Below are positions 25,757-31,427 of a stretch of 33,279 nt of DNA, piece by piece. The notes under the pieces were generated by a model. It searched no databases, was not told the DNA's origin, and saw only the letters and a program-made list of their open reading frames with translations. Every line of letters starts with the position of its first letter. Positions within the stretch are counted from its first letter, which is position 1. The position numbers and the translations under genes are program-made. This DNA is from Candidatus Woesearchaeota archaeon (GTDB taxonomy: Archaea; Nanobdellota; Nanobdellia; Woesearchaeales; GCA-2686295), in NCBI GenBank assembly GCA_016784125.1, contig JADHVI010000009.1, positions 1-33,279 on the forward strand. Direction: 5' to 3'.

Positions 25757-26971
25757 ATGAAAAAAGGAAAATACTTGTTCACAAGCGAAAGTGTAACAGA
25801 AGGTCACCCAGACAAGATGTGTGACCAGATAAGTGATGCGATTCTAGACGCAGCATTATCAGAAGACCCAAATTCTAGAGTAGCAATTGAGACCCTAACA
25901 AAGACAGGTTTTGTAGTTGTCGCAGGGGAACTAACAACAAATACCTACATTGATGTTCAAAAAGTCGTAAGAGACACAATCAGAGAAATTGGTTACGATG
26001 ACCCATTATTCGGTTTTGACTGTGATGGATGTGGAGTTCTATCAGCAATATCAGAACAAAGCCCAGACATCTCACAAGGAGTAACTGAAGGAAAAGGATT
26101 GCACAAAGAACAAGGTGCAGGAGACCAAGGTATGATGTTTGGATACGCATCAAACGAAACCCCAGAATACATGCCACTACCAATAGTTCTAGCACATAAA
26201 TTAACAAAGAAACTAGCAACTGTAAGAAAATCTGGCAAATTAAAATACTTGAGACCTGACGGAAAAAGTCAAGTAACAATTGAGTACCACAACGGAACTC
26301 CAAAGAGAGCTGAAGCAATTGTTATTGCAACACAGCACTCACCAAACGTTAGCCATAAAACAATCGAAAAAGACATGATTAAACATGTTATCAAACCAGT
26401 TTGTGGCAAATGGATTGACAAGAACACCAAATTTCACGTCAACGCAACAGGAGCGTTCATAGTTGGAGGCCCAGTTGGAGACGCAGGAGTTACAGGAAGA
26501 AAGATCATTGTAGATACCTATGGTGGACACGGAAGTCACGGTGGAGGAGCATTCTCAGGAAAAGATCCTTCAAAAGTAGACAGATCAGCTTCATACGCAG
26601 CAAGATACATCGCAAAGAACATAGTTGCAGCAGGATTAGCAGCTAAATGTGAAGTACAACTAGCATACGCAATTGGAGTTGCAAACCCGGTTTCAGTACT
26701 GATTCACACCTTCGATACAAACAGAATACCTGAAGAAGAAATCAGCAAATTGGTTGTAAAACACTTCCCATTGAAGCCATCTGACATCATCAGTCACCTA
26801 AGATTGAAAAGACCAATCTTTAAGAAAACAGCTTCATACGGACACTTTGGAAGGAATGACCCAGACTTCACATGGGAAAAACTAGACAAAGTAGATGCAT
26901 TGAAGAAAGATGCAAGTCAGTTCGACAAGCCTAGTGTAAACGGCAGCAATGCCCCATTAGACGGGTACTAA
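25757..26971 (+). CDS. metK: S-adenosylmethionine synthetase, bacterial type
   Basis: Makes SAM from methionine and ATP. 404 aa, the bacterial/eukaryotic MAT length and sequence rather than the archaeal MAT family. Signatures: [20 protein letters not shown] (catalytic His and metal site), [12 protein letters not shown] (hexapeptide motif), and [20 protein letters not shown] leading to KVDRSA (P-loop-like motif). [11 protein letters not shown] near the C-terminus is typical too. It serves the methyltransferases at 4954 and 6669, among others. It has its own promoter and Shine-Dalgarno and is followed by T-rich sequence. Its presence in an archaeal context suggests an acquired gene, a pattern known in DPANN lineages (inference). 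Confidence 0.97.
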
Positions 26972-27559: not shown

Positions 27560-28084
27560 ATGAAAAGAGTTGAAGACTTTTTAGAGGAAGCAAAACAGTT
27601 AAGTGACACAGAACTTACAGAAAAGTTCGGCGTTTATGACAACTGGAAAATGCTAGTTCAACATCACCATTTAAGTTTAGCATCAGGTCTTATTGAAACT
27701 AACAAATTCAGTTTTGCAAGACTTATTAACATTCATGGAGGAAGAATAGTTCGCCTAGATCATCTAGAAACTGCGAACGTTGAAATCATGGATTACTTAT
27801 TGCCAGAAAGAACTATAGATGAAACAATTATGTTTCAACAATGTTTTAAAGCCAACGGGTGGAATCACAATCTGACATTACAATTTCATCCTCAAACTTC
27901 AGATGGTTATCACAAAGGAGGATGGGATGAAAGATGGATAAGAAATGTTTTTCAAGCAATTGATGACGTTTCACAATATTTAATTCAAGAAGGGATTCCT
28001 GCTTGTTACATAGACGCTCGACCTAGAGGAACAAAACCTGACTTAGAAAATATGTATACTCTGGAAATGAGATCACAATCCTAA
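27560..28084 (+). CDS. Protein of unknown function, His- and Trp-rich
   Basis: 174 aa, not recognised. An N-terminal helical part (VEDFLEEAKQLSDTELTEKF) leads to a region with many histidines (MLVQHHHLSLAS, INIHGGRIVRLDHLE, HNLTLQFHPQTSDGYHKGGW) that could bind a metal. DERWIRNVFQAIDDVSQYLI and PACYIDARPRGTKPDLENMY complete it. TATA GTTTATATAA is centred 27 nt before the ATG (leaderless). The last 12 bp overlap the end of ftsY on the other strand. No similar family comes to mind; enzymatic function is possible but unproven. Confidence 0.65.
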   Translation: MKRVEDFLEEAKQLSDTELTEKFGVYDNWKMLVQHHHLSLASGLIETNKFSFARLINIHGGRIVRLDHLETANVEIMDYLLPERTIDETIMFQQCFKANGWNHNLTLQFHPQTSDGYHKGGWDERWIRNVFQAIDDVSQYLIQEGIPACYIDARPRGTKPDLENMYTLEMRSQS

Positions 28085-29869
28085 ATTTTCTATTATTTCT
28101 TCTTTGTCAAATTCCTTAAGATCATCATACGTTTGACCCGTACCTAAGAATAAGATTGGTTTCTTTGTAATATATGATACACTGATGGCCGCACCGCCTT
28201 TTTCATCAACATCAGCTTTTGCAAGAATAATTGCGTCAATCCCAACAGCTTCATTGTAAGCCTTTGCTTGCTCTACGCAATCATTGCCAGTTATGCTTTC
28301 TCCGATAAAAATCTTCATATCCGGGTTATTAACTCTAATTAATTTTTTTAATTCTTCCATTAAGTTAGTGTTACTGTGCAATCTTCCAGCAGTGTCTATT
28401 AACACAACGTCAATTCCTTTGCTTTTTGCATGCTCAATGGCATCAAAAGCAACTGCTGCAGGGTCCGCGTTATAATCATGCTTTATCATTTTCACTTTAA
28501 GCTTATTTGCATGCTCTTCTAACTGTTGAATGGCTGCCGCTCTAAATGTGTCTGAAGCTGCAAAGACAACGCTCAAATCGTTTTTTAGAAGTTTATTAGC
28601 CACTTTTGCCATAGTGGTTGTTTTTCCAGAACCATTAACACCTATAAATGCGATTATGTAAGGTTGTTTTTTCTTTACCTCTTTTAGTAAATCAATATTT
28701 TGAACATCTAAAACTTCTTCAATTGAGTTTCTTAAAGTATCTCTGATGACTTCTTCAACTCCCTTCCTTGAAACCTTTCCAGTTGTTAGTTCTTCTTTCA
28801 AATCCGCTTTGATCTTCTCAATGACTTCTACAGCTACATTGTTTTCTAGCAATGTAACTTCTAAATCCCAGAATATATCTTCAAACTTTTTCTCTGATAA
28901 ATTAAATTTAGTGACAGTTTCAGTTATTTTCGTAAAGAAGCCCTTTTTTTCCTCAGGTTGCTCTTCAGAAATAATTTTCTTTTCTTCAATAACTTCTTCT
29001 TTAAGTTCTTCATACTCTAATTCTTTTTCTTTCTTAGTAAATATCTTTTTGAAAAAACCTTTCTTTTTCACTTCTGGGACGCTAACTTCTTCTTCCATTA
29101 AATAATCCCAACCAGGTTGCCAAGCTTTTTTAGGACGCCAATCTTCATCTATAACTTGGCTCCAAGTTTTACTTAGTAGTAAAACCTCAATTGCAAACTG
29201 AGGCGCTTGATGTGCCATAATAGCAACATGTTTACCATAATATTCTTTATACAAATAATTAAGAAATTCTGCTATTCTTTTCTCAACTTCCTCATAACTT
29301 TCTCCGTTTGGAAAAGATGTTTTAATGTAATCTTTTAACTCCCAATCCTTCTTTTTCTGAGTAAAATCACCATAATCACATTCTCTAAGCCTCTTATCTT
29401 CTTTTAGTTTACAAAGATCTTTGAAATATTTTGCAGAGTCAGTGGCTCTTAAAAGATCAGAAGAAAACATGACATCAAATGTATCATACTTAATTTGCTT
29501 TGGTAAAACCTCAGCTTGTTCAATACCAAGTTCTGAAAGTTCACCTTCTGCCTGACCAGTTGCTAATTGCTGCTCATTATCAGTTGTAGTGCCGTGAACA
29601 AAATAAGTTATCTTTACGCCTTTGGTTTTTTCTATAACTTCTGCCTTTGATTTTTTCTTAGAAACTTTTTTATCTTCTTTTACTGCTTCGCCACCTTTGA
29701 CAGGTACCGGCTCAGCAGATTTAGGCTGTTTCTTCTTCTCAACTTTTTTCTTTACTTCTTTCTTAGGAGGAGTTTTGACTTCGACTTCTTCTTGTTCTAC
29801 TTCTGCCTCTACTCCTTTCTTTATAGAATCAACAACGCCTTTTAACTTGTCCTTTAGGAATTTAAACAT
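28073..29869 (-). CDS. ftsY: FtsY SRP-receptor GTPase with an inserted histidine-phosphatase-like domain
   Basis: 598 aa from ATG 29869. Residues 1-19 are an amphipathic helix (MFKFLKDKLKGVVDSIKKG), 20-84 a charged Lys/Glu linker. Residues 85-258 are a histidine-phosphatase (phosphoglycerate-mutase-like) domain: KITYFVHGTTTDNE with His92, SSDLLRATDSAKYF with Arg141, ECDYGDF with E163, and AIMAHQAPQFAIEVLL with His220. The usual RHG is VHG. A second charged linker (about 259-315) follows. Residues 316-598 are the FtsY NG domain with GVNGSGKT (410-417), DTFRAAAIQQL, DTAGR (492-496) and a GTG loop (576-578). It docks SRP-ribosome complexes at the membrane. A 55-residue upstream extension is rejected, because it overlaps the divergent gene and lies upstream of the TATA box (about 29891-29900), which is 26 nt before ATG 29869. 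Confidence 0.93.
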   Translation of the reverse strand: MFKFLKDKLKGVVDSIKKGVEAEVEQEEVEVKTPPKKEVKKKVEKKKQPKSAEPVPVKGGEAVKEDKKVSKKKSKAEVIEKTKGVKITYFVHGTTTDNEQQLATGQAEGELSELGIEQAEVLPKQIKYDTFDVMFSSDLLRATDSAKYFKDLCKLKEDKRLRECDYGDFTQKKKDWELKDYIKTSFPNGESYEEVEKRIAEFLNYLYKEYYGKHVAIMAHQAPQFAIEVLLLSKTWSQVIDEDWRPKKAWQPGWDYLMEEEVSVPEVKKKGFFKKIFTKKEKELEYEELKEEVIEEKKIISEEQPEEKKGFFTKITETVTKFNLSEKKFEDIFWDLEVTLLENNVAVEVIEKIKADLKEELTTGKVSRKGVEEVIRDTLRNSIEEVLDVQNIDLLKEVKKKQPYIIAFIGVNGSGKTTTMAKVANKLLKNDLSVVFAASDTFRAAAIQQLEEHANKLKVKMIKHDYNADPAAVAFDAIEHAKSKGIDVVLIDTAGRLHSNTNLMEELKKLIRVNNPDMKIFIGESITGNDCVEQAKAYNEAVGIDAIILAKADVDEKGGAAISVSYITKKPILFLGTGQTYDDLKEFDKEEIIENLGL

Positions 29870-29929: not shown

Positions 29930-29949
29930 CCATTTTGTAAAAAATGAGT

Positions 29950-31020
29950 ATGGACCAATTTGACGCAGAATCATTCGAAATTCTAAATGAAGCAAAGCAA
30001 GCTCAGAAAGCTCTACGTTCAGAGAACTATCCAAAAGTTTCTGAATTTCTTCAGCACATGACAGGATTAGAAAGACATGAAATAGAAATATTACTAGCAG
30101 ATGTTAGGCTTCAAAGCGATCAAACATTATTTTTTGATTTAAAGGAATACACTGCTAAGATTTACGAAGAATTAAGAGTTGCAAAAGAAGATTTTGATAG
30201 ACAAGAATACAAAAAAGTTGGTAAATTATTAAAATTTATTATTTCAGTTGAAAAAAGTGCAATAAAAGAAAAAAAATCTCATTCTGCAGAGATTAAATTA
30301 GCAACAATCGTTGCATTAGATACGGCCATAATTATGACTATTCGCGGATTCTTAGATGCATATGTGCAGCAATTTGGAAAAACCGTTGATGCAGTTGAGT
30401 ATTATATGCATGTAGGTGGAGAAACAATTTCTACTATTGGTTCTTGGTTTAATTTCGGAAAAGAGAGTGAACAAGAATTAGTCCAAGAAAAAACAGAAAT
30501 GAAAAAAGAAGATGAACAAGGATACAAAACATATTCTGAACAACCAGTTGAAACAAATTGGACTTTTTATCAAGACAATAGTTGGCAACACACATATTCT
30601 GACTACTTATACTTTGTCTGTTTAGCAGCTTTAGCAGGAAAAGTAGTTCTGCGAGACCTTCCAAGGTATGTAAAAAGAAAGTTTAAACAACACTCAGTAA
30701 ACAAAGAAATGATGGTACTTCAAGCCAAAGTCCATAACTTACTCAAAACTGAATTATTATCAATAAGAGACATGATTAATTCAGAAACTACTAAAGTCAG
30801 AGAATTAGAACTTAAATTGAAACAACTTGATCAAAAGATATCCGGTATAAATCGTGATCATACTACAGTACAAGAATATAAAGAGGTTGTATCCATTTAT
30901 GAAGAATTAAAAAGAGAATCCTTAAGTAGAGTTCAAGAGACTAAAAAATTAATTCGCGTAGAAACAGAAAGAATAATACAACAAGCAGCAGAACATTTTG
31001 CTACTCAGATTCAAGCTTAA
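29950..31020 (+). CDS. Unknown protein with helical domains and two possible membrane segments
   Basis: 356 aa from ATG 29950 (ATG 29944 would add two residues but lies slightly too close to the TATA box). The N-terminal 110 residues are helical, with two similar units (AKQAQKALRSENYPKVSEFL and AKEDFDRQEYKKVGKLLKFI), suggesting a repeated helical hairpin. Hydrophobic stretches occur at about 117-134 (IKLATIVALDTAIIMTIRGF) and 220-232 (YLYFVCLAALAGKVVL), separated by a polar loop rich in E, Y and W. The C-terminal part (about 250-345) is coiled coil. It is divergent from ftsY and its stop overlaps that of pfdA. Function unknown; a membrane-anchored scaffold is one possibility. Confidence 0.65.
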   Translation: MDQFDAESFEILNEAKQAQKALRSENYPKVSEFLQHMTGLERHEIEILLADVRLQSDQTLFFDLKEYTAKIYEELRVAKEDFDRQEYKKVGKLLKFIISVEKSAIKEKKSHSAEIKLATIVALDTAIIMTIRGFLDAYVQQFGKTVDAVEYYMHVGGETISTIGSWFNFGKESEQELVQEKTEMKKEDEQGYKTYSEQPVETNWTFYQDNSWQHTYSDYLYFVCLAALAGKVVLRDLPRYVKRKFKQHSVNKEMMVLQAKVHNLLKTELLSIRDMINSETTKVRELELKLKQLDQKISGINRDHTTVQEYKEVVSIYEELKRESLSRVQETKKLIRVETERIIQQAAEHFATQIQA

Positions 31021-31427
31021 TTCTCTTTTTTAGAACCAGCTTCTTTTTTCATCAAGTCATGTTGCAATTCTTGGATTTTCTCGTACATTTGCTCGTAGTA
31101 CTGAACTGTTTCTTCCTTGTACTGTTCTAAATCTTTGAGTTGTACTTCTATGATTTTCTTTGCACCTTCAACGTTCTTATCAACTACTATATGATTACCA
31201 ACATTTACTTTTAGCTTATCCACATTTTCAAGCGTTGCTTCTGCAAAGATACCGTTAGCTACAGGCACCAATATTTTATCGCCTTTTTTCAAGTTCTTAA
31301 AATCATCTAATGATTTGATAATCTTGTTGATCTCCTCGGCATTACTTTCAATGCTTTGAAGGGTTTGACTTAGCTGTTGTATCTGCTTTTCTATCATCTG
31401 ATATTCCATTACTTTTTCCTGATCCAT
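31017..31427 (-). CDS. pfdA: Prefoldin subunit alpha
   Basis: 136 aa. Two coiled-coil helices (about 5-45 and 87-130) flank the beta hairpins KKGDKILVPVANGIFAEATL and DKLKVNVGNHIVVDKNVEGA, the signature of archaeal prefoldin alpha. It forms the alpha2-beta4 jellyfish chaperone that hands unfolded proteins to the thermosome. In archaea pfdA commonly lies beside ftsY; here a 356-aa gene on the other strand sits between them. It starts 2 bp after prs and its ribosome-binding site lies in the end of prs. The stop overlaps the convergent gene by 4 bp. Confidence 0.92.
   Translation of the reverse strand: MDQEKVMEYQMIEKQIQQLSQTLQSIESNAEEINKIIKSLDDFKNLKKGDKILVPVANGIFAEATLENVDKLKVNVGNHIVVDKNVEGAKKIIEVQLKDLEQYKEETVQYYEQMYEKIQELQHDLMKKEAGSKKEN

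Follow-up and report, generated by a model that had tools for sequence, protein, structure and literature searches.

Why should the receptor of the signal recognition particle (SRP) carry a histidine-phosphatase domain between its membrane anchor and its GTPase? Few proteins are as conserved across life as FtsY, whose A-region tends to be seen as a mere anchor. Here we analyse a window of 33,279 nucleotides from a Candidatus Woesearchaeota archaeon, in which the ftsY gene encodes such a protein. A first-pass annotation, made from the letters alone, had described it as an in-frame fusion and had proposed that the extra domain couples membrane targeting to a phosphorylated signal.

Anatomy of the fused receptor

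The reading frame is uninterrupted from 29869 to 28073 on the minus strand, and its 598-aa product is an FtsY that consists, from N to C terminus, of an amphipathic helix, a disordered tether, the histidine-phosphatase (HP) domain, a second disordered tether and the NG GTPase. The features, with the evidence for each in brackets, are as follows.

28073..29869, minus strand: ftsY-HP gene, 598 aa and stop (open reading frame, Pfam, conserved start)
29804..29863, minus strand: N-terminal amphipathic helix, residues 3-22, MFKFLKDKLKGVVDSIKKGV.., putatively membrane-targeting (AF2 helix, hydrophobic moment)
29633..29791, minus strand: charged tether 1, residues 27-79, predicted disordered (pLDDT below 50, low identity)
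29096..29620, minus strand: histidine-phosphatase domain of the VHGTT subfamily, residues 84-258 (Pfam, profile, AF2, Foldseek against PDB, alignment with HP-less sisters)
29591..29599, minus strand: VHG motif, residues 91-93, His92 being the nucleophile position and Val91 replacing the canonical Arg (alignments)
29447..29449, minus strand: Arg141, second phosphate-pocket arginine (kept in 14/14 FtsY copies)
29381..29383, minus strand: Glu163, acid/base position (kept in 14/14 FtsY copies)
29210..29212, minus strand: His220, second catalytic histidine position (kept in 14/14 FtsY copies)
29108..29143, minus strand: subfamily signature DWRxKKAWQPGW, residues 243-254 (near-invariant in alignment A1)
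28913..29059, minus strand: charged tether 2, residues 271-319, predicted disordered, with FFKKIF-type motifs (pLDDT below 50)
28076..28912, minus strand: NG domains (SRP54_N and SRP54 GTPase), residues 320-598 (Pfam, AF2, tree)

Pfam recognizes SRP54_N (E=4.5e-7) and the SRP54 GTPase (E=2.5e-71), both over cut-off, and His_Phos_1 (PF00300) at residues 92-226 (E=4.8e-25, 88.8 bits against a cut-off of 21.7). The MF start of the protein agrees with the conserved MF(G/K)xLK start of intact relatives; an upstream TTG start at 30034 is unlikely, since these relatives have an MF(K/G)FLK-type start in common. The hydrophobic moment of helix 3-22 (0.60-0.65) is the maximum within the protein, and the FFKKIF-type motif of tether 2 is retained in HP-less sister FtsYs.

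The AF2 model of the HP domain, built with 26 relatives, has a pLDDT of 95.5 and a pTM of 0.91, and its best Foldseek matches in the PDB are members of the superfamily (E to 2e-13, TMq about 0.8, about 23% identity). In the whole-protein model (pTM 0.53) residues 84-258 and the NG domains are folded, and residues 27-79 and 271-319 stay below a pLDDT of 50. With two folded units, disordered segments between them and an N-terminal helix, the receptor is thus predicted to resemble two beads strung on a disordered chain that follows an amphipathic helix. Pfam, the modelled fold and Foldseek therefore bear out the fusion as first annotated; the domain limits given at that time, 85-258, agree with those of the profile and the model, and structure prediction, one of the checks then proposed, returns the superfamily fold.

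Two further observations concern the rest of the window. The ftsY and prefoldin-alpha genes adjoin in many archaea; here a 358-aa open reading frame on the opposite strand (29944-31020) lies between ftsY and a prefoldin-alpha-like gene (31017-31427, recognized by eye). The 404-aa S-adenosylmethionine synthetase encoded at 25757-26971 on the plus strand resembles by eye the bacterial type (MetK), not the archaeal one.

Recurrence and constraint

A survey of related DPANN genomes, another of the checks proposed, located HP-FtsY in 13 of the 371 genomes sampled from the window's phylum, spread over seven families, and the scanned genome contigs showed this architecture in Woesearchaeota and in one unassigned archaeon. 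Taken together, the sources yielded 14 distinct HP-FtsYs of full length, 13 of them from the 371-genome sample; a micrarchaeal FtsY-HP (L032), cut at a contig end, was tallied as partial only and stands outside the 14. The sequences used in the trees come from public genome assemblies, mostly metagenome-derived, and such data could in principle yield two genes joined by assembly or binning. However, the architecture is common to 14 distinct full-length proteins, which come from many assemblies and seven families, the HP-FtsYs have diverged synonymously (pS 0.50-0.99 for HP and NG), and both domains are under selection. Recurrence of the architecture thus rules out an assembly join as well as chance; the first-pass annotation had already judged a join unlikely from the open frame and the similar composition of the linkers, and we consider the artefact explanation vanishingly improbable.

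Mean pairwise identity among HP-FtsYs is 0.60 for HP and 0.64 for NG, with 0.40 and 0.46 for the tethers, and in the pairs computed pN/pS ranges over 0.17-0.45 in HP and 0.13-0.41 in NG. His92, Arg141, Glu163 and His220, which had been picked out in the window protein at the outset, occur in every one of the 14 FtsY copies. Identity, pN/pS and these four catalytic positions together indicate that the domain is constrained in its FtsY setting, and by these comparisons of sequence it is under purifying selection near that of NG.

The VHGTT subfamily

Among the 371 genomes, the subfamily to which the domain belongs is sharply set apart from generic phosphoglycerate-mutase-like proteins (E <1e-60 versus >1e-35). 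It is present in 37 of them: in 13 the domain lies in FtsY, in one it is fused to GyrA and in 23 it is free-standing. All 39 matches in 380 Patescibacteria genomes are free-standing, as are all 17 in the 156 genomes of the phylum of G385 and three of the four in the 245 genomes of the phylum of G386. Overall, the subfamily was found in about 10% of the sampled CPR, Nanoarchaeota and Aenigmatarchaeota genomes, mostly as free-standing genes and throughout as a single copy per genome. No genome of the 371 has both a fused and a free copy; by rough chance expectation fewer than one such genome would occur among 371, and this mutual exclusion was not used as evidence.

The reading of VHG in place of RHG needs to be corrected in emphasis. 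Val91 is indeed present, but it follows a rule of the whole subfamily and is no defect or decay of this one protein. The RHG arginine is absent in all 97 members with a readable motif, its place being taken by V (mostly), A, I, S or P; the count covers 100 distinct domains, less three without a readable first motif. Five actinobacterial relatives have T at the same position. In contrast, H9, R58, E80 and H137 of alignment A1 (26 rows), which match His92, Arg141, Glu163 and His220, are invariant. The Asp of the HGTTxDN motif, Asp97 in the window protein, is likewise invariant in the subfamily. The distant actinobacterial relatives (30-38% identity) have THATT or similar and the tryptophan/GW signature in common, and most of them also have the W-x-P-G-W core.

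Genomic context gave no hint of function for the actinobacterial plasmid relatives, and no recurrent neighbour of the subfamily was seen in 60 loci, so that the neighbourhood offers no clue to function or substrate. A viral origin was rejected: no relative by sequence was found in viral contigs, and the matches in BFVD and phages are to the generic superfamily only.

Individual members vary. One copy (L064) is a variant with a Lys-rich tail. Another, at L030:2841-3380 in a genome titled candidate division SR1 (G388), has four in-frame TGA codons, as expected because TGA encodes Gly in the SR1 code. A decayed C-terminal remnant (KAPQLSLDV...KAWQPGW) lies at L222:1941-2159 in G066, in a short frame without an intact N-terminal half.

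Other hosts and the history of the fusion

FtsY is not the only host. In three Patescibacteria the domain is inserted in valyl-tRNA synthetase (ValRS) at one position, between WCxSRQIWxGHxI and DxLDTWFSS, and in a nanoarchaeote (G226) it is fused to the C terminus of GyrA, behind the beta-propeller.

L015:3514-6816: ValRS insertion
L024:5683-6696: ValRS insertion
L226:2470-4998, numbered on the reverse-complemented strand: ValRS insertion
L049:1188-3332, minus strand: GyrA C-terminal fusion

The GyrA fusion occurs in the same family where other genomes have HP inside FtsY. Elsewhere the domain is usually a protein of its own or part of ValRS or GyrA, which makes it look like a passenger grafted repeatedly and not like an error. 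Moreover, the A-region has taken more than one cargo, as the FtsY tether of L060 (370-3096, minus strand) holds a PF06821 serine hydrolase (RBBP9-like; residues 81-270, E=1.6e-9) upstream of HP. Inspection by eye of unusually long HP-less FtsYs found longer charged tethers only and no other domain.

The presence of HP in FtsY is patchy. The NG tree intermingles receptors with and without HP, even inside genera, with 11 changes, at least five of which are forced by well-supported branches, and a single clade of HP-bearing receptors is rejected (p=4.8e-8). The window NG groups with related archaeal FtsYs and is 80-85% identical to same-genus receptors. In that genus HP occurs in the window's genome (G000) and in G215 and is absent from G091, G127 and G321; in the alignment of these FtsYs both flanks are kept, and HP is present or absent as one block.

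On the HP tree, where bacterial and archaeal phyla are mixed, the FtsY copies fall into two clusters, which starred branches separate. A single HP-FtsY origin on this tree was not rejected by the AU test (p=0.44), and two independent fusions are not claimed. Because the largest-scale grouping of the HP copies tracks FtsY families, the simplest history is an old fusion followed by many losses. Recombination within f1 is possible, since the window HP is nearer to G069 (84% identity, against 69% to same-genus G215), and the window NG is nearer to G215 (84%, against 81% to G069).

These data also bear on the proposal that the domain is a cassette that spreads laterally and survives best when it sits in frame at places in indispensable proteins that tolerate insertion (the FtsY tether, the ValRS insertion loop and the GyrA tail). 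It would fit a loner gene without conserved neighbourhood in 60 loci, an HP tree with mixed phyla, essential hosts of three kinds and the second enzyme in the L060 tether. However, no mobility genes were seen, no relative was found in viral contigs, and the large-scale agreement of fused copies with FtsY families suggests vertical descent with losses. We give this proposal a rather low probability.

Possible function

The explanation that we judge somewhat likelier to be right than wrong is that HP is a working passenger enzyme, probably catalytic, which the FtsY tether keeps at the membrane, with NG unchanged. An otherwise normal FtsY would house a complete enzyme of the VHGTT subfamily in its disordered A-region tether and would supply it with expression and, via the N-terminal amphipathic helix, with membrane tethering, while NG would continue its ordinary SRP-receptor work unaltered by the passenger. 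The domain most likely dephosphorylates a small phospho-compound, with His92 as the nucleophile, Glu163 as the acid, and a pocket that includes Arg141 and His220. Candidates that may make up for the missing RHG arginine are the subfamily-specific Asp97 and the basic/aromatic DWRxKKAWQPGW segment. Catalysis is considered likely because the catalytic residues are retained. The passenger role is favoured because the subfamily is mostly stand-alone and occurs also in ValRS and GyrA, and because NG has no HP-linked difference: an alignment of the 14 HP-FtsYs with 27 others contains no fixed HP-linked column, and within a genus the NG identity of receptors with and without HP reaches up to 95%, the NG of one HP-FtsY (L003) being 94.7% identical to that of an HP-less receptor (L133). 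In addition, all 13 genomes tested at 90% completeness or more contain SRP54, fused ones included, so there the receptor still has its partner; SRP54 was not found in the window's genome, which is 83.6% complete.

Against this explanation, loss of the arginine could make HP a binding rather than a catalytic domain, that is, a pseudoenzyme that merely binds a phospho-ligand or another protein. Such a role would be in line with the absence of Arg in all readable subfamily motifs and in the five actinobacterial relatives; yet selection for binding alone would not predict the full His/Arg/Glu/His set that the 14 FtsY copies keep and whose counterparts are invariant in A1. We regard a pure binding role as rather unlikely.

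The coupling of membrane targeting to a phospho-signal, as first proposed, found no supporting evidence. It would have HP sense or remove a phospho-ligand (a metabolite, a nucleotide alarmone or a membrane phosphoprotein) and thereby tune SRP-dependent targeting. The domain is under selection and sits between the membrane helix and NG, where regulation could act; bacterial FtsY binds (p)ppGpp, which inhibits SRP-receptor complex formation, and this case demonstrates that the SRP pathway can be nucleotide-controlled (PMC8881573). However, the mark expected of regulation in NG or the linker was not found: NG carries no HP-linked signature in the comparisons above, and the tethers are predicted disordered and evolve fast. 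Furthermore, HP was gained or lost within genera, and the same domain exists alone or in unrelated hosts. Regulation of targeting by HP is thus disfavoured, and we think it improbable.

The passenger enzyme need not be neutral for its host, since the A domain of E. coli FtsY is reported to help anchor the receptor to the membrane, to contact the translocon and possibly to regulate the GTPase (PMC2572998). The recurrence of HP in FtsY, in two clusters of the HP tree, might mean selection for the FtsY location. More speculatively, and with a small probability, VHGTT may be a module that roams between bacteria and archaea and persists through in-frame grafting into essential proteins, and that in FtsY also serves as a phosphatase tethered to the membrane, its active site being non-canonical.

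The A-region in some DPANN archaea thus carries an intact, selected enzyme-like domain, and gain or loss of this domain between sister species provides natural with/without pairs for probing an A-region passenger. One module in FtsY, ValRS and GyrA is a rare case of grafting into essential proteins that are unrelated to one another, seen in bacteria as well as archaea. The subfamily without the arginine is an as yet uncharacterised branch of a large superfamily of enzymes.

Comparison with known systems

In agreement with the first-pass annotation, which knew of no such fusion, we found no description of FtsY-HP in the searched papers, all of them open-access, and on this scope the novelty is provisional. 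The main text of a survey of archaeal fusions gives no SRP receptor fusion (PMC11237513). That source does report an ATP sulfurylase (Sat)-histidine phosphatase fusion from one Sulfolobus (cluster 407.2), also an archaeal histidine phosphatase fusion, with another host protein in one genome (PMC11237513).

As an SRP receptor, the window protein is like other FtsYs in its complete NG, N-terminal amphipathic helix and charged A-region, and differs from the usual form in the 175-residue folded domain within that region. Most archaeal and bacterial receptors are described as reduced to the NG core, others having a variable A domain (PMC2572998).

As a phosphatase, the domain resembles branch 1 enzymes (PF00300; CobC/PhoE/PspA-like) in fold, nucleophile His, second Arg, Glu and second His, with PDB matches to CobC (6e4b), PspA (4ij5, 4ij6), PhoE (1h2e) and a riboflavin-biosynthesis histidine-family phosphatase (9mmh). 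In contrast to these, its subfamily is without the RHG Arg and has the Asp of HGTTxDN and the C-terminal DWRxKKAWQPGW, at about 23% identity. None of the NCBIfam equivalogs (CobC, PspA, dPGM) is over cut-off, the best being TIGR03162 CobC with 72.9 bits against 162.9. Finally, the stand-alone VHGTT proteins of CPR and DPANN belong to the same subfamily, match the domain over its full length with 49-62% identity and have all catalytic positions; unlike the FtsY copies, they are unfused loner genes.
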